Positions 4,731 to 62,316 of a stretch of DNA of 64,000 nt are shown piece by piece (positions within the stretch are counted from its first letter, which is position 1; every line of letters starts with the position of its first letter). The notes beneath the pieces were generated by a model, which saw only the letters and a program-made list of their open reading frames with translations, made no database searches and was not told where the DNA came from. The translations under genes and the position numbers were made by a program. The stretch comes from Sphingomonas ginsengisoli An et al. 2013 (GTDB taxonomy: Bacteria > Pseudomonadota > Alphaproteobacteria > Sphingomonadales > Sphingomonadaceae), in assembly GCF_009363895.1 (NCBI RefSeq), contig NZ_CP045434.1, positions 2,870,501 through 2,934,500 on the forward strand. The letters run 5' to 3'.

Positions 4731-5222
4731 GTGGCATTGGAGCACCTGTTTCAGGGCAGTGCGCTCAATGCGGTAGACGCCAAGGGGCGCGTCTCCGTAC
4801 CCGCCTTCCTGCGCACCGTGATCGAGCGCCGCGGCGACTCGCGCACCATCGTCCTTGCCAAGCACGAGCAGTTCCAGGCCCTGAGCGCCTACGATCCCGC
4901 CTACGCGGCGCTCAAGCACGAGAAGCTCGAACGCCTGCTCGAGAAGCAGGAGACCGACCCCCAGGCGCAGCTCGAATATCAGCAGCGCAACCTGATGGCG
5001 TTCGCGGCGAGCGAGGAAGTGCCCTACGACAGTTCGGGCCGCATCCTCATGCCGCCGATGATGCGCCGCAAGGGCGGGATCGCCGACCTCGCGCTCTTCC
5101 TCGGCACCGGTGAGACCTTCCAGATCTGGAACCCCCAGACCTTCCTCGCCGACCCCAACATCCCGGAGGATTTGAAGGACATCTGCCGTTACCGGCTCGA
5201 AGAGCGGGGGATCAGCGCGTGA
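4731..5222 (+). CDS. mraZ: Transcriptional regulator MraZ
   Basis: First gene of the dcw cluster; a DNA-binding regulator of the AbrB-like double-psi barrel fold that represses its own operon. The 163 residues carry two copies of the SpoVT/MraZ motif: [17 protein letters not shown] near residue 13 and [16 protein letters not shown] near residue 99. The GTG start at 4731 follows GGGAG (4716-4720) by 10 bases and gives the expected F-x-G beginning ([13 protein letters not shown]). It is somewhat longer than the usual 145-150 residues, with the excess between the two halves ([14 protein letters not shown]). Five TGGG repeats upstream are its probable operator. The stop overlaps the rsmH start (GTGA). 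Confidence 0.95.
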
Positions 5223-29247: not shown

Positions 29248-29261
29248 AACTCGCCGTTCGG

Positions 29262-29310
29262 ACAAACGAAAGGGCCCGGGGCGATCGCTCGCCCCGGGCC
29301 CTTCTTCATT
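29262..29310. terminator. Bidirectional terminator between doxX and the rcnB-like gene
   Basis: Perfect 15 bp stem (29270-29284 with 29289-29303, AAGGGCCCGGGGCGA) and a 4-base loop. CTTCTTCATT follows on the plus strand and TTTCGTTTG on the minus strand, so it serves both converging genes. Confidence 0.85.
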
Positions 29311-29319
29311 CCGCTGCTC

Positions 29320-35677: not shown

Positions 35678-36091
35678 ATGTTCGGCGTCGACAGTAGCGA
35701 GCTTCTCATCCTCGCCGTCCTGGCGCTGATCTTCATCGGCCCCAAGGAACTGCCTTCGACCATGCGCACCGTCGGTCGCCTGGTGGGGAAGGTCCGCGCG
35801 CACGCCCGCCACTTCACCGCGGGCATCGAGAACATCATGCGCGAGGCCGAGCTCGAGGAGATGGAGAAGCGCTGGCGCGAGGAAAACGAGCGGATCATGA
35901 AGCAATTCCCGGTCGATCCGCTGGGCCTCACCGCGACCCCGCCCGATCAGCCGACCCCGGTGATGACCTCGCTGCCGCCGCCCGCCGACCCCGCGCCGGC
36001 TGCGCCCGTGCCGCCAGTCGCCGAGCCGTCCGCCGATGAGCCGCGGCTGCCGCTCGGCGAACCCGACCATAGCGGCAAGCCGCTCCCGTGA
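35678..36091 (+). CDS. tatB: Sec-independent protein translocase subunit TatB
   Basis: Substrate receptor subunit with TatC. 137 residues: MFGVDSSELLILAVLALIFIGPKELP (helix and the G-P-K-E-L-P hinge typical of TatB), a long amphipathic helix (RTVGRLVGKVRAHARHFTAGIE, ENIMREAELEEMEKRW), and a Pro-rich tail. Overlaps tatC by 4 bp. Confidence 0.95.
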   Translation: MFGVDSSELLILAVLALIFIGPKELPSTMRTVGRLVGKVRAHARHFTAGIENIMREAELEEMEKRWREENERIMKQFPVDPLGLTATPPDQPTPVMTSLPPPADPAPAAPVPPVAEPSADEPRLPLGEPDHSGKPLP

Positions 36092-36858
36092 ACGACATCG
36101 ACGACACCAAGCAGCCGCTGCTCGAGCATCTGATCGAGCTTCGCCGCCGGCTGCTGGTCAGCTTCGCGACTTTGGTCGCCGCCTTCTTCATCTGCATGTA
36201 TTTCGCCAAGCCGATCTTCGCGGTGCTGGTCCAACCGCTGCTGCGGGCCGGGCAGGGCAAGCTCATCTACACCGACATTTTCGAGGCCTTCTTCACAGAG
36301 GTGAAGGTCGCCGTCTTCGCCGCGCTGATGCTCTGCTTCCCGGTGTTCGCGACGCAGATCTGGCGGTTCGTGGCGCCGGGCCTCTACGTCAAGGAGAAGA
36401 AGGCGTTCCTGCCGTTCCTCCTGATGACGCCCTTCTTCTTCATCGGCGGCGCCTGCTTTGCGTATTTCGTGGCGATGCCGTGGGCCTTGAAATTCCTGCT
36501 CGGCTTCGACGGCAATGTCGGCGGCATCCAGCAGGAGGCGCTGCCGGGCGTCGGCAATTACCTGAACTTCGTGACCCGCTTCCTGTTCGGCTTCGGTGTC
36601 GCCTTCCTGACCCCGGTGCTGCTGATGATCCTCGAGCGGGCGGGCATCGTCACCCGCGAGCAACTCGCCGCCCGGCGCCGCCACGCGGTGGTGATCTCGG
36701 CGGCGGTCGCCGCGGTGCTGACGCCGCCCGACGCGGTGTCGATGCTGCTGCTGCTGGTCCCGCTCTATCTGCTGTTCGAGTTCGCGCTGCTGGCGATCTG
36801 GGTCACTCACTGGCGCGCCGCCCGCAAGGCCGCGGCCACGCCGGACGCCGCCGCCTGA
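36088..36858 (+). CDS. tatC: Sec-independent protein translocase subunit TatC
   Basis: Core receptor for twin-arginine signal peptides; six membrane helices. 256 residues from a GTG overlapping the tatB stop. Conserved stretches: LLEHLIELRRRLL (about 11-23), FTEVKVAVFAALMLCFPVF (about 70-88), the QIWRFVAPGLYVKEKK motif (about 90-105) and the P-x-x-L-x-x-L-E-R-A-G segment near 175. Essential for exporting the DUF1501 protein found upstream. Confidence 0.96.
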   Translation: MNDIDDTKQPLLEHLIELRRRLLVSFATLVAAFFICMYFAKPIFAVLVQPLLRAGQGKLIYTDIFEAFFTEVKVAVFAALMLCFPVFATQIWRFVAPGLYVKEKKAFLPFLLMTPFFFIGGACFAYFVAMPWALKFLLGFDGNVGGIQQEALPGVGNYLNFVTRFLFGFGVAFLTPVLLMILERAGIVTREQLAARRRHAVVISAAVAAVLTPPDAVSMLLLLVPLYLLFEFALLAIWVTHWRAARKAAATPDAAA

Positions 36859-36944
36859 GGACGAGCCGCCGTGGCTACGCCATCGCCGCGTGCATCGCTG
36901 CTTGCCAACCGTCAGTTCGAATGTCGCGGAGCCCAGACGCAAGT

Positions 36945-37036
36945 GGGCCCGGAAGCGCTACCGGGGGGGGAGGGTAAGCGGTTCCGGGCCCATGTAAGCG
37001 GATAGCGAGAGCGGGGGGGCAAAAGGTCACTATCCG
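36945..37036 (-). ncRNA. Candidate EcfG-dependent small RNA with two C-rich hairpin loops
   Basis: The 220 bp between tatC and phyP has no ORF worth keeping. On the minus strand, a perfect EcfG-type promoter (37043-37069) would start transcription near 37036. From there the sequence folds into hairpin 1 (CGGATAG 37036-37030 with CTATCCG 37005-36999; its loop contains seven consecutive Cs) and hairpin 2 (36991-36982 with 36954-36945, GGGCCCGGAA/TTCCGGGCCC, extended inward by CGCTTACC/GGTAGCG; loop CTCCCCCCCC). Exposed C-rich loops are typical of stress-induced RNAs such as GsrN of Caulobacter, which is made by the equivalent sigma factor. No clear terminator is seen after hairpin 2, so the 3' end is uncertain. 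This is inference from promoter, fold and place in the stress locus. Confidence 0.45.
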
Positions 37037-37042
37037 AAGAGT

Positions 37043-37069
37043 AAAACGACGCTTTTGGAATGGGGTTCC
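37043..37069 (-). promoter_or_regulatory. EcfG-type promoter pointing away from phyP into the tatC-phyP gap
   Basis: On the minus strand GGAAC (37069-37065), 16 bases, then CGTTTT (37048-37043): an exact match to the GGAAC-N16/17-CGTT consensus of EcfG-controlled promoters. It lies just downstream of the phyP stop and faces leftward, so it does not serve phyP or tatC. Confidence 0.6.
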
Positions 37070-37078
37070 CACCCATTC
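37058..37078 (-). terminator. Hairpin directly after phyP
   Basis: GAATGGG/CCCATTC stem of 7 bp, starting one base after the phyP stop on the minus strand; the T-run (CGTTTT) comes 9 bases after it. It overlaps the EcfG promoter, so termination of phyP and the start of the candidate RNA share this DNA. Confidence 0.45.
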
Positions 37079-38683
37079 TCAATTTTTTTGCGCGGCCTCA
37101 TCTTTTTCTTCCGCCAGATAATCGCGCGGCGGGAAGACGGGGCAGATGACGGTATAGCGGCCCGGCTCGCGCTCGAGCGGCGAGCGGAGCTGCTTGGCCA
37201 GCCCGGTGATGATCCGCTCGAACTGCGGCCGCTCCTCGACCCGCGCCGGGTCGAGCATGGTCGCGGCGATCGAATAGCGCGCACTGGTGTCGTCGATCCG
37301 CGTCAGCGTCAGCCGCACCGCATCGTCGGGATTGGTCAGCATCGCGCACTCGACCACCTCGGTGGTGAAGAAGGCGAGCGCCACCGCCGAATCCTGCGTC
37401 GCATTGAGCGAGTCGAGTTCGAGGTCGATGTTGAAGCGGCGGGCGTGGTCGGGCGCACTGCCGCGCAGGCTCGACGCCAATTCGCTGATCAGCGGCCGCA
37501 GCGAAATCCCGCGGCTCTCCTCCAGCTCGGCATAATGGTTGCGGTGGACCACCGCGAGCGCATCGACCCGCCGCCCGATCGAGGCATAGGCCTCGCGCGC
37601 GTCGGGGGAGGCGGTCATCCGGCTGTGGATGTTGAGCAGCGAGGCGATCACCTGGAGGTTGTTCTTGACCCGGTGATGGACCTCGCGGACCAGCCGGCGC
37701 TGCCCCTCGAGCGCGGCGCCGGTGTGGCCTTCGGACTCCTCGATCCGCGACATCGCCCGGCTGAAGCTGGCGCCGAGCTCGCGGATTTCGGTCGCCGAGC
37801 CCAGCCGCGGCAGGATCAGCGGTCCGCTGCCCGGCTCGTAGCGGGCAATCGCGCGCTGCATACGGCTGAGCGGGCGGATCAGGAAGCGGCTGACCATCAG
37901 CCAGCTAAGCAAGGTGGCGAGGATCCACATTAACAGCGGCAGCAGGATCACCCCGCGCTCGCCCGCGGTGATCCGCCGGACATAGGCCGCGGTGTGGACG
38001 GTCAGCTGGTCGCCGGCGAGCGGCCAGTCGCGGTCGATTAGCTGGAGGTCGGCCTCGCGCGCCGGCAGCGCCGAGGGTGGCTCGGTCGAGGCGTCCGCAT
38101 CGTCGATCAGCGTGGCGGTGGCCCGCCCGTCGGTCAGCGTCAGCCGGCGCAGGATGTCGGTGGCGTTTAGCGCGGCGTCGCGCAATTCCTCGCGCGACAG
38201 GGCGCCGGTGCCGATCCCGCCGGGCACGCCGACGCGATAATAAAGCACGTTGCCGGTCGGCGAGAGCCACAGCCGGACCCGCCCCGGTTCGATCAGCACC
38301 CCGTCGTCCTGCGGCTGGATCGTGCCCACCGTGCACAGCAATTGCCCGCTCGAATCCTGCAGCGCGAAGCTGCGGGCGACGCCGGGCGACACGCTCAGCG
38401 ACCGCTGCGCGAGCCCGCAGGCGTCCTCGCCCGGGGTCCTGAGCGCTGCGGTGGTGGCGATCCTCAAGGCGAGCACGTTACGCGCGAGCAGGCTCTCGAC
38501 CGCCCGGCTCGCGCCGCGGCTGCGCGCCTCGGTGGCGGCGATCAGCGCCTGGTTGGCGCGGTTGATGCTGGTGGTCGCCGCCCACGCCAGGACAAGCCCG
38601 AGCGGAAGGATGGCGGCGGACAGGATGATGAGCAGCTTGCCCGGGGTAGGCAAGCGGCGGAACCAGCCAATGAGCGCGGTCAT
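37079..38683 (-). CDS. phyP: PhyP-like membrane HisKA_2 kinase/phosphatase of the general stress response
   Basis: 534 residues. Two membrane helices (about 17-38 and 252-275) enclose a periplasmic sensor segment; a HAMP-like stretch follows, then the HisKA_2 dimerisation domain REVHHRVKNNLQVIASLLN with the phospho-accepting His near 335. The ATP-binding part is degenerate: where the N-box should read E-L-V-x-N-A the sequence has EVVECAML, and no D-x-G-x-G or G-L-G box is seen. A protein of this kind, PhyP of Sphingomonas sp. Fr1, sits at the same locus and acts as a phosphatase of PhyR, so a negative role is more likely than kinase action. 27 bp downstream of nepR, same strand. Confidence 0.8.
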   Translation of the reverse strand: MTALIGWFRRLPTPGKLLIILSAAILPLGLVLAWAATTSINRANQALIAATEARSRGASRAVESLLARNVLALRIATTAALRTPGEDACGLAQRSLSVSPGVARSFALQDSSGQLLCTVGTIQPQDDGVLIEPGRVRLWLSPTGNVLYYRVGVPGGIGTGALSREELRDAALNATDILRRLTLTDGRATATLIDDADASTEPPSALPAREADLQLIDRDWPLAGDQLTVHTAAYVRRITAGERGVILLPLLMWILATLLSWLMVSRFLIRPLSRMQRAIARYEPGSGPLILPRLGSATEIRELGASFSRAMSRIEESEGHTGAALEGQRRLVREVHHRVKNNLQVIASLLNIHSRMTASPDAREAYASIGRRVDALAVVHRNHYAELEESRGISLRPLISELASSLRGSAPDHARRFNIDLELDSLNATQDSAVALAFFTTEVVECAMLTNPDDAVRLTLTRIDDTSARYSIAATMLDPARVEERPQFERIITGLAKQLRSPLEREPGRYTVICPVFPPRDYLAEEKDEAAQKN

Positions 38684-38710: not shown

Positions 38711-38893
38711 TCAGCTGAGCTTGCCGAGCAGGTCCATGAAGTCGTTGGGGACTTCCTCGCGAAGCGTGTTGTCGTAGACGGTCTTGAGCGCACGACCGAC
38801 AGCCCCAGGCGGATCGGCGCGACGACGCTTCTTGGCCATCTCGTTCCGCTCCTCGGTTGGACGGCGGTTGTCCGCATCGTTGTTCGCACTCAA
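38711..38893 (-). CDS. nepR: Anti-sigma factor NepR
   Basis: 60 residues. The conserved NepR core is clear: VGRALKTVYDNTLREEVPNDFMDLLGKL, with the helix 1 (ALKTVYDNTL) and helix 2 (DFMDLLGKL) that hold the EcfG sigma factor and are captured by phosphorylated PhyR. The start is a TTG at 38893 preceded by GGGGGA; an ATG at 38839 with GAGGAG before it would give a 42-residue form that still contains the core. Transcribed divergently from phyR and just ahead of phyP. Confidence 0.93.
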   Translation of the reverse strand: MSANNDADNRRPTEERNEMAKKRRRADPPGAVGRALKTVYDNTLREEVPNDFMDLLGKLS

Positions 38894-39059: not shown

Positions 39060-39160
39060 GGCGCTATTGCAAGATTTTTGCGCTGCGCCCGTAGGGTTGC
39101 AGTTTGCGGTTGCGGCTTCCAATAGGGGGCCAAATTTCGATCATGGAGAGATCACACCAT

Positions 39161-39964
39161 ATGTCGCTGGGCCAGGAACTCGCTCCGCATCTGCCTTTCC
39201 TGCGCCGGTATGCCCGCGCGCTGACCGGCAGCCAGACCCATGGCGACGCCTTCGTGCGCGCCACGCTGGAGGCGATCGTTGCCGCGCCCGAGAGTTTCCC
39301 GCGCGACGTCGAGCCGCGGCTCGGCCTCTACCGGACCTTCCACGCCATCTGGTCGACCGCCAACATCGAGGAAGGCGAGGACGGCTTCGCCGGCGACCTC
39401 GGCAATGCCGAGAGCATCGCCCAGGCCCGCCTGTCGCGGGTCACTCCGCTGTCGCGCCAGGCGCTGCTGCTGACCGCGCTCGAGGGCTTCTCGTCGAGCG
39501 ACGCCGGCTATCTCATCAACGCCAGCCCGGACGAGGTCGAGAATCTCGTCGCCGAGGCGATGGAGGAAATCGAGCGCCAGACCCACGCCGACGTCCTCAT
39601 CATCGAGGATGAGCCGATCATCGCGATGGATATCGAGACCATCGTCCGCGACCTCGGCCACAACGTCACCGGCGTGGCGGTCACTCGCGACGAGGCGGTG
39701 GCGCAGGCCCGTGCCCATCCGCCGGGCCTGGTGCTCGCCGACATCCAGCTCGCCGACGATTCGAGCGGGATCGACGCCGTTCGCGACATCCTCGCCGAAT
39801 TCGCGGTGCCGGTGATCTTCATCACCGCTTTCCCCGAGCGGCTGCTGACCGGCACCCGCCCCGAGCCGACCTTCCTCATCACCAAGCCGTTCCAGCGCGC
39901 CACGGTGAAGGCGGCGATCGCCCAGGCGTTGTTCTTCGACGCGGCGACCGTTCCGGCGGGTTAA
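39161..39964 (+). CDS. phyR: General stress response anti-anti-sigma regulator PhyR
   Basis: When phosphorylated it binds NepR and frees EcfG. 267 residues from the ATG at 39161 (MSLGQELAPHLPFLRRYARAL). Residues about 1-135 form a sigma-factor-like domain (sigma2-like FLRRYARALTGSQTHGD, sigma4-like YLINASPDEVENLVAEAMEE); residues about 140-260 form a receiver domain with the acidic pair in IIEDEPIIAMD, the phospho-acceptor Asp in VLADIQLAD, Thr in IFITAFPERLL and Lys in LITKPF. The stretch from FITAFP to KPF fits the FATGUARD receivers of this pathway. Confidence 0.97.
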   Translation: MSLGQELAPHLPFLRRYARALTGSQTHGDAFVRATLEAIVAAPESFPRDVEPRLGLYRTFHAIWSTANIEEGEDGFAGDLGNAESIAQARLSRVTPLSRQALLLTALEGFSSSDAGYLINASPDEVENLVAEAMEEIERQTHADVLIIEDEPIIAMDIETIVRDLGHNVTGVAVTRDEAVAQARAHPPGLVLADIQLADDSSGIDAVRDILAEFAVPVIFITAFPERLLTGTRPEPTFLITKPFQRATVKAAIAQALFFDAATVPAG

Positions 39965-39977
39965 TCCCCGCCGCGAG

Positions 39978-40003
39978 GGAACTCCGGTTCCCACCGTTGC
40001 GTT
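39978..40003 (+). promoter_or_regulatory. EcfG-type promoter of the small membrane gene and ecfG
   Basis: GGAAC (39978-39982), 17 bases, CGTT (40000-40003), an exact consensus match, 14 bp after the phyR stop. Transcription should start near 40010, about 30 bases before the small ORF and 240 before ecfG, giving positive autoregulation of the sigma factor. Confidence 0.65.
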
Positions 40004-40246: not shown

Positions 40247-40894
40247 TTGAGCGCTCACGACGATATCGACGAGGACGAGGTGGACGAAGCTCCCAAGCCG
40301 GAGCCGATTCCGCTTTCCGATCCCGAGTTCAAGGACCAGCTCGCGCAGGTCATTCCGCACCTGCGCGCGTTCGGCCGGTCGCTGTCGGGCAGCCGCGATC
40401 TCGCCGACGACCTCGTCCAGGAAACGCTGCTTAAGGCGTGGGCCGCGCGCAAGCGCTTCCAGGCCGGCACCAACATGCGCGCGTGGACCTTCATCATCCT
40501 GCGCAACCTGTTCCTGAGCCAGATGCGCCGCGCCCGCTTCAAGGGCGAGTGGGACGAATTGACCGCCTCAAAGCTGCTCGCCGCGCCGGCCAGCCAGGAC
40601 CGTCACGTCGAGCTGGGTGACATGCAGCGCGCGCTGATGCACTTGCCCCAGCCGCAGCGCGAGGCGCTGATCCTGGTCGGTGCGGGCGGCTTCGCTTACG
40701 AAGAAGCGGCTGAGATTTGCGGCTGCGCGGTCGGCACGATCAAGAGCCGGGTCGCGCGCGGCCGCGTCGCGCTCGAGCAATTGCTGTCGGGGGGCAAGCT
40801 GCCCAGCCGGCGCCAGCACAAGACCGACCCCAACGTCTCGGCGCTGTCGCAGATCATGGGCGAAGTCGACGAGCTCGCGCGCGACCGCGAATAG
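40247..40894 (+). CDS. ecfG: RNA polymerase sigma factor EcfG (general stress response)
   Basis: Group ECF15-type sigma factor. 215 residues: region 2 with HLRAFGRSLSGSRDLADDLVQETLLKAW and NMRAWTFIILRNLFLSQMRR (about 31-93), region 4 with MHLPQPQREALILVGAGGFAYEEAAEICGCAVGTIKSRVARGR (about 130-172, quoted here only to locate the helix-turn-helix). The start is a TTG at 40247 with GGGGGA very close; a GTG at 40280 is an alternative. Held inactive by NepR and released by PhyR. Candidate target promoters in this window: nepR-phyP, its own, ldt, the hemerythrin-like gene and the putative small RNA. Confidence 0.93.
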   Translation: MSAHDDIDEDEVDEAPKPEPIPLSDPEFKDQLAQVIPHLRAFGRSLSGSRDLADDLVQETLLKAWAARKRFQAGTNMRAWTFIILRNLFLSQMRRARFKGEWDELTASKLLAAPASQDRHVELGDMQRALMHLPQPQREALILVGAGGFAYEEAAEICGCAVGTIKSRVARGRVALEQLLSGGKLPSRRQHKTDPNVSALSQIMGEVDELARDRE

Positions 40895-62290: not shown

Positions 62291-62316
62291 AAACGGAGCA
62301 GGTGCGCGGCTGTTCC
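62291..62316 (-). promoter_or_regulatory. EcfG-type promoter of the L,D-transpeptidase gene
   Basis: Minus strand GGAAC (62316-62312), 16 bases, CGTTT (62295-62291), an exact consensus match. Predicted start near 62285, 38 bases before the ATG. Confidence 0.65.

Follow-up and report, generated by a model that had tools for sequence, protein, structure and literature searches.

A candidate EcfG-driven small RNA with two C-rich loops beside the general stress response genes of Sphingomonadaceae

Under stress, PhyR sequesters NepR in a partner switch that frees the EcfG sigma factor, and detailed work on the stress response of Sphingomonas has treated it as a circuit of proteins. Erythrobacter litoralis belongs to the same order, the Sphingomonadales. 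The closest described RNA is GsrN of Caulobacter: the main text of the GsrN study proposes that a run of six Cs recognises G-rich targets and describes pairing of the loop with the katG leader (PMC5869019). GsrN homologues are described there in Caulobacteraceae and GsrN-like RNAs are proposed in Rhizobiales (Tien et al. 2018, PMC5869019); the same text uses E. litoralis as an outgroup without an apparent gsrN-like gene and contains no sphingomonad GsrN homologue (PMC5869019). Two further small RNAs invite comparison, each as presented in the accessible text of its description. PmaR of Agrobacterium, which is induced in stationary phase, regulates several mRNAs through a C-rich loop (PMC6234868), and SuhB of Sphingopyxis granuli is a 61-nt RNA linked to growth rate and carbon catabolite repression (PMC6563040). 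In its main text, the transcriptome study of EcfG in S. melonis makes no mention of small, non-coding or intergenic RNA, and the sole small RNA mentioned in the S. granuli EcfG paper is a reference to SuhB. Among the titles and abstract openings listed in a survey of the open-access literature, there was no report of the sphingomonad RNA described below, and by title no open-access paper on GsrN appears to treat sphingomonads.

The locus analyzed here lies within a stretch of 64 kb from the Sphingomonas ginsengisoli genome, hereafter the window. Conservation in relatives strongly supports an EcfG-driven small RNA with C-rich loops at this locus, encoded beside the following genes:

36088..36858, plus strand: tatC, convergent neighbour of the RNA (Pfam TatC, E 5e-68)
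37079..38683, minus strand: phyP-like HWE/HisKA_2 sensor histidine kinase gene (Pfam HisKA_2 and HWE_HK), upstream of the RNA on the same strand
38711..38893, minus strand: nepR (Pfam NepR, E 7e-8)
39104..39964, plus strand: phyR (Pfam PhyR_sigma2, PhyR_sigma-like and Response_reg)
40247..40894, plus strand: ecfG-type sigma factor gene (Pfam Sigma70_r2 and Sigma70_r4_2), its EcfG subtype suggested by its neighbours

The name phyP is taken from a first-pass annotation of this DNA and from the layout of the locus. That annotation had placed an RNA next to stress-response genes, and the Pfam assignments for NepR, PhyR, the sigma factor, the HWE/HisKA_2 kinase and TatC bear this out. From the phyP stop at 37079 to the tatC stop at 36858 the gap measures 220 bp; it had been described as free of genes, and only mechanical open reading frames cross it.

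Three elements of a predicted promoter lie on the minus strand at the phyP end of this gap:

37070..37099, minus strand: A/T-rich upstream tract resembling an UP element, overlapping the last codons of phyP in the source genome
37065..37069, minus strand: -35 element GGAAC of an EcfG-type promoter, kept in 59/59 genus loci
37045..37048, minus strand: -10 element CGTT, with a spacer of 16 nt; the longer CGTTTT extends to 37043

The EcfG promoter announced for this gap was read without change as GGAAC-N16-CGTT at 37069-37045, which is the EcfG motif published for Sphingopyxis granuli in the accessible text of that study (PMC7083833). CGTT is followed by 9 nt and then by GGATAG (37035-37030, minus strand), which places the promoter 9 nt ahead of hairpin 1. 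The upstream tract is a feature of the genus: an A/T run of at least 6 occurs within the 30 nt 5' of GGAAC in 58 of 59 loci, against 4.0% of random 30-nt windows from the same loci. Taken alone, the promoter motif is unremarkable in the window, where GGAAC-N15-18-CGTT was found 3 times against 1.39 expected and where 18 of 100 shuffles gave at least 3. A second motif, GGAAC-N17-CGTT at 39978-40003 (plus strand), lies between phyR and the ecfG gene and is likely to be an autoregulatory EcfG promoter; a third, GGAAC-N16-CGTT, stands at 62292-62316 (minus strand). On the tatC strand, a terminator-like hairpin with TTTTTTT at 37057-37079 (plus strand) overlaps the -35 region, and this stretch is without conservation in relatives. 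When the promoter was joined to a C tract (GGAAC-N15-18-GTT with C6 within 10-38 nt), two rows remained in the 3.04-Mb genome, both of them the single site of the RNA locus itself, and the reversed-pattern control gave 0. Across a sample of the class the promoter and C6 pattern matched 119 of 289 genomes; the controls, compared unsummed, look similar, so this pattern alone is no detector.

The predicted RNA gene and its parts were mapped as follows:

36930..37039, minus strand: predicted small RNA gene of ~105-110 nt, with a probable start at ~37039-37035 and a probable end at ~36930
36999..37036, minus strand: hairpin 1, the 5' domain, with 10 outer pairs in the MFE fold
37013..37019, minus strand: C7 tract of loop 1 with GCTCT directly after it, where pairing with mRNAs is proposed
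36944..36992, minus strand: hairpin 2, a long G+C-rich stem and probable terminator stem
36963..36972, minus strand: C-rich loop 2, CUCCCCCCCC (CTCCCCCCCC), the loop of hairpin 2; C8 in the source genome

The 109-nt RNA folds at -47.4 kcal/mol, with a z of -5.3 against dinucleotide shuffles, none of 200 being as good. A covariance model of the RNA, R2, matches 36931-37039 with 106.8 bits, the source sequence being among its training set. In the first description, hairpin 1 had a loop of seven Cs on a stem of 7 bp; the loop stands, and the stem is replaced by the 10 outer pairs of the MFE fold. The second long hairpin, given as 36991-36945, was found at 36992-36944 with its C-rich loop. The missing U-run after it, named at the outset as a weak point, is indeed missing in the source genome, where the longest T run in the following 14 nt is 2. 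Among the 59 genus loci, this run reaches at least 4 in 20 and is at most 3 in 39.

Conservation was examined within the genus by searching a 146-nt DNA query, including the promoter, in 61 genomes with the source included. It matched 59 of them, the two misses being genomes that are 77% and 79% complete, and none of the 39 genomes sampled from the order's other families gave a match. The 59 genus loci examined come from 58 genomes (G003 gives two); two end-of-contig fragments (G050:C115 and G031:C10) were left out, and L060, a weak second match in G011, was excluded from the genus counts. GGAAC-N16/17-CGTT is present in 59/59 loci, with exactly 9 nt from CGTT to GGATAG in 59/59, and this includes the 10 loci in which the BLAST match starts 3' of the -10 element. 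The spacer between the -35 and -10 elements is unconserved, and the alignment of the RNA is invariant in 51 of 114 columns. A phyP match adjoins the RNA in all 59 loci and a tatC match in 58, the one exception being truncated where its contig stops. For the PhyP protein, identity falls mostly at 41-56% and in a few loci at 60-81%. The C run of loop 1 varies from C6 to C9 and that of loop 2 from C7 to C11, each in 59/59 loci. This conservation makes the RNA locus more than chance.

The same loci bear on a short peptide gene in the gap, for which the mechanical open reading frames that span it could be cited, for example one of 65 aa at 36875-37072 on the minus strand. Measured from GGATAG to where stem 2 ends, the element spans 89 to 96 nt, and in 18 of 59 loci this length is not divisible by 3. 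The lengths of the element and of its C runs thus vary out of frame, which rules out a conserved reading frame, and conservation tracks stems and loops instead; a peptide gene is extremely improbable.

Beyond the genus, two covariance models were used, and both search samples include genomes that supplied training sequences. R1, a model of the RNA only, was searched in 296 genomes of the order and gave matches at E <= 0.1 in 76 of them and in 19 of 79 genera, the weakest ones being doubtful. R2, built from 53 sequences with the promoter excluded, was searched in 298 family genomes and at E <= 0.01 matched 121 genomes and 44 of 96 genera. Among these 121, at least five (G233, G266, G328, G657 and G724) are judged to be false matches, and the count at E <= 1e-6 is preferred for this reason: in a recount of the match list it amounts to 108 genomes and 37 of 96 genera. 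The expectation, stated with the first description, that promoter and C-rich loops recur in relatives agrees with both data sets, the promoter and both C tracts in 59/59 genus loci examined and the R2 matches in 108/298 family genomes. R2 gave strong matches in only two of 289 class genomes, both Sphingomonadaceae, and six others reached at most 23.7 bits. In named genomes, a sequence pattern for hairpin 1 returned at least 120 matches; among the 80 listed, every named genus is sphingomonad (Sphingomonas, Sphingobium, Sphingomicrobium, Sphingosinicella, Sphingorhabdus, Stakelama, Hephaestia and Parasphingopyxis), and the remaining matches belong to MAGs to which no genus is assigned. A chance promoter match beside low-complexity C runs would be in keeping with a motif that is not rare in the window, and with the loosened promoter and C6 pattern that in 119/289 class genomes looks like its controls. 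The recurrence in 59/61 genus genomes and 108/298 family genomes (E <= 1e-6) already refutes it, and it deserves practically no weight.

The loci outside the genus, 47 in number, retain much of this anatomy. GGAAC-N16/17-NGTT is in place before hairpin 1 in 41 of them (at 9 nt in 40, at 10 nt in 1), against a chance of 0.16% per upstream region in a mononucleotide shuffle. Strict CGTT is found in 29/47; in Sphingobium (g46) the -10 element is often GGTT, another known variant. C6 or more stands in both halves of the RNA in 44/47 loci, CCCCGCTCT, a C run followed by the conserved GCTCT, in 41/47, and an adjoining phyP match in 35/47. Among the promoter misses, L130 has its promoter at a slightly different spacing, L086 has CATT as its -10 element, a variant known from Sphingopyxis in the accessible text (PMC7083833), and the boxes of L116 and L124 are altered. 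The sequence of L128 stops at the edge of its contig, and L129, rejected as a member, is a hairpin that follows a peroxiredoxin gene; both are counted among the 47 as misses. The Sphingobium loci show that the gene neighbours can change: L118-L122 have a tatC match and no phyP match, L123 and L125 have neither, and all seven carry GGAAC-N16/17-NGTT in front. By Pfam, L118, L123 and L125 have a cell wall hydrolase gene (Hydrolase_2) on one side and a TatC or DUF4136 gene on the other.

A further 20 weak R2 loci divide into 9 with GGAAC-N16/17-NGTT in place (L428, L421, L427, L422, L423, L417, L418, L410 and L411) and 11 without. L413, L414, L415, L416, L425 and L426 were judged non-members, being hairpins without the promoter, even though the loop of L415 contains C4-GCTCT and those of L425 and L426 are rich in C. 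The promoter is likewise not in place in L419 and L420. L409, L412 and L424 were likewise rejected as members, each being a promoterless C-rich-loop hairpin just 3' of an AhpC-type peroxiredoxin gene. In the window, an R2 match at 29256-29315 (18 bits) was rejected as a second copy, since it is a plain terminator hairpin. When 30 unmatched family genomes were scanned for the promoter and C6, 34 rows were returned against 19 for the control, with no convincing member by eye; one of these genomes, G178, had given a weak R1 match at E 0.04.

Two of the weak loci with a promoter are extra copies, in two family genomes, that lie away from tatC and phyP and combine an EcfG-type promoter with a C-loop hairpin on a new stem:

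L410, 2047-2145, plus strand: extra copy with loop GACCTTTTGCCCCCCCGCTCTC on a new stem, adjoining an SRAP gene
L411, 1975-2087, minus strand: extra copy adjoining an adenylosuccinate lyase gene

The hairpins after AhpC-type peroxiredoxin genes form a separate observation. They occur in four genomes from two other family genera, resemble hairpin 2 and are without an EcfG promoter (Pfam assignments for L409 and L129 only):

L409, 2018-2105, plus strand: peroxiredoxin 3' hairpin
L412, 2003-2085, minus strand: peroxiredoxin 3' hairpin
L424, 1982-2065, minus strand: peroxiredoxin 3' hairpin
L129, 2478-2564, plus strand: peroxiredoxin 3' hairpin

A 3'-UTR-derived C-loop RNA of a peroxide-stress gene is a possible interpretation of their sequence.

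Such plain 3' hairpins, promoterless and C-rich in their loop, show what the stress-locus hairpins might also be: nothing more than the 3' UTR or the terminator of phyP, or a terminator that phyP shares with tatC, in which case there would be no separate RNA. In favour of this, the stem of hairpin 2 is strong, rich in G+C and located downstream of phyP, and a T run of at least 4 follows it in 20/59 genus loci. A terminator, however, would not be expected to have a promoter at a fixed distance in 59/59 and 41/47 loci, nor to have an ultra-conserved loop 1, and the RNA persists where there is no phyP match (L118-L122) and where both phyP and tatC are missing (L123 and L125). This explanation is accordingly considered improbable, and an RNA with its own EcfG promoter is preferred.

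The fold of this EcfG-driven RNA was assessed in 53 family sequences, in which 99.2% of pair cells are standard and 15 of 21 pairs show double changes. Double-change cells number 85 against 16.0 in shuffles that ignore relatedness (0/500), and slid structures pair at 25-47%, a control over which the structure is favoured by having been derived from the tested alignments. The genus alone gives 41 double-change cells against 8.8 in shuffles. In hairpin 1, 99.8% of cells are paired across the family and double changes occur at 4/9 pairs; in hairpin 2 they occur at 11/12 pairs. Despite both biases, the double changes give convincing support to a two-hairpin fold. In the remote members L421, L427, L417, L418, L422 and L411 the promoter and a C-loop persist although the stems are quite different, which argues that selection holds the promoter and the C-loop.

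Searches for mRNA targets established none. AGAGCGGGGG, the complement of the conserved loop 1 seed CCCCCGCUCU, occurs 9 times in the genome including the RNA locus, against 14 for the control. At 2 of the 8 other sites, an open reading frame on the same strand starts within 120 nt 3', and the rest do not stand before a start; one site lies 96 nt before a mechanical open reading frame start. One copy of AGAGCGGGGG, a perfect complement of CCCCCGCUCU, stands at window 5201-5210 (plus strand), where mraZ ends, and occupies positions 9-18 nt upstream of the start of mraW. The pairing energy of this site with loop 1 is equalled in 37 of 1500 random 60-nt windows, and the site is a lead only, as chance can explain the match.

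Longer G tracts before start codons were also surveyed. GGGGGGG-N2-14-ATG gave 9 rows (7 sites) in the source genome against 2 for the control, and 120 against 48 in 14 relatives, an excess that could be explained by G-richness of the SD type. In the source genome and the 14 relatives, 80 of 112 distinct G7 sites have an open reading frame of at least 70 aa starting no more than 40 nt after the tract. The genes 3' of these sites seldom recur and form five homologous pairs: L284/L319 and L339/L359, which lie inside genes, L286/L363 (outer-membrane-like), L316/L371 (MurJ-like by eye) and L292/L314 (32-38% identity). As a conserved target, the L286 gene was not sustained, since G6 or more precedes one of the first three ATGs in 3/26 homologue loci, with start codons guessed mechanically. 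In L316 and L371, from two genus members, a tract of G7 or more stands shortly before the start of the gene that looks MurJ-like by eye. At L269 1501-1517 (plus strand), in the source genome, a G7 tract precedes a DUF2167 gene that starts 14 nt further on. Pairing with a G-rich katG leader, the behaviour implied by the comparison with GsrN, finds no support here: no G run longer than 3 occurs in the ~160 nt before katG in the source genome, where the position of the katG start site is uncertain. Such pairing is a feature of the target and not a strict criterion of the GsrN family.

That these searches established no conserved mRNA target could favour an RNA that is real and EcfG-driven, with C tracts that capture a protein (Rho, a cold-shock protein or Hfq) and do not pair with mRNAs. 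Tandem homopolymeric C loops of variable length would also suit a protein-binding role. Base pairing, however, fits better with C runs held in hairpin loops and followed by a conserved GCTCT, and GsrN and PmaR, which both have C-rich loops, pair with mRNAs in the accessible text of their descriptions (PMC5869019, PMC6234868). Protein capture is therefore regarded as unlikely.

The preferred reading, with a probability of roughly three in four, is that the gap holds a gene for a trans-acting, EcfG-driven small RNA whose C-loops would pair with mRNAs, giving the stress response a post-transcriptional arm. Taken together, the sequence, the EcfG motif in the literature and the established partner switch suggest that PhyR would take up NepR under stress, free EcfG would bind GGAAC-N16-CGTT, and transcription would start just 5' of hairpin 1. 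The RNA of ~105-110 nt probably folds into two hairpins, as covariation suggests, with hairpin 2, by its anatomy, as the probable intrinsic terminator. By analogy with GsrN in Caulobacter, loop 1 may pair through its C tract, and loop 2 perhaps likewise, with G-rich stretches of mRNAs and alter their translation or stability. The RNA would thereby extend the general stress response to the post-transcriptional level across much of the Sphingomonadaceae. If this is true, a conserved RNA gene adds a regulatory layer at the stress locus in 37 of 96 sampled genera (E <= 1e-6), and it opens the question of why the EcfG circuits of different alphaproteobacterial families each carry a C-loop RNA.

Comparison with known RNAs places this candidate closest to GsrN. 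Rfam gave 0 matches at gathering score in the 64-kb window; in the RNA region, at E up to 10, only alpha-r14 (ar14, RF02344) appeared, and membership in that family was rejected, since its 12.9 bits (E 2.7) fall far short of the gathering score, 58.8. The RNA is thus proposed as a new family, absent from Rfam and from the literature searched, and is likened to GsrN by anatomy; kinship by descent would be conjectural. RepG of Helicobacter pylori, in which a C/U-rich terminator loop pairs with a homopolymeric run of Gs whose length varies, is a parallel for loop 2 only, its organism and promoter being unrelated. SuhB is likewise a small RNA of the sphingomonad group, but its accessible description contains no EcfG promoter or C-loop (PMC6563040). 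PmaR shares a C-rich loop, the element through which it regulates several mRNAs; unlike the sphingomonad RNA, it consists of one long stem with a large loop, and neither an EcfG promoter nor a stress-locus neighbour appears in its accessible description (PMC6234868). The likeness to GsrN goes further. As presented in the main text of its study, GsrN has an EcfG/sigma-T promoter, a gene usually beside the ecfG-nepR-phyR locus, a length of about 106 nt, a C-rich loop in the 5' half and a 3' intrinsic terminator. Processing to a stable 5' isoform and stabilisation by Hfq also characterise GsrN. By sequence, the sphingomonad RNA has an EcfG-type promoter directly upstream, a location at phyR-nepR-ecfG and an exposed C-rich 5' loop; of a GsrN-type 3' terminator it has the stem, with a T run of 2 in the source genome and of at least 4 in 20/59 genus loci. 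It differs from GsrN, as described there, in that its probable terminator hairpin also bears a C7-C11 loop and in that the katG leader of the source genome has no G-tract. R2 also finds no strong relative outside the Sphingomonadaceae in the 289 class genomes, a sample in which the presence of Caulobacteraceae is uncertain. The original label of a GsrN-like RNA consequently holds for anatomy and location, with promoter, spacing, loops and structure conserved, and does not extend to the pairing with katG. An EcfG-dependent small RNA family that is GsrN-like in anatomy is very likely. The odds seem evenly poised for a broader proposal: that this unreported two-headed C-loop RNA is the post-transcriptional stress arm in much of the Sphingomonadaceae and a very diverged or independently evolved counterpart of GsrN, in which selection would hold constant only the C-tract loops and their EcfG promoter, with entire stems exchanged and additional copies present.
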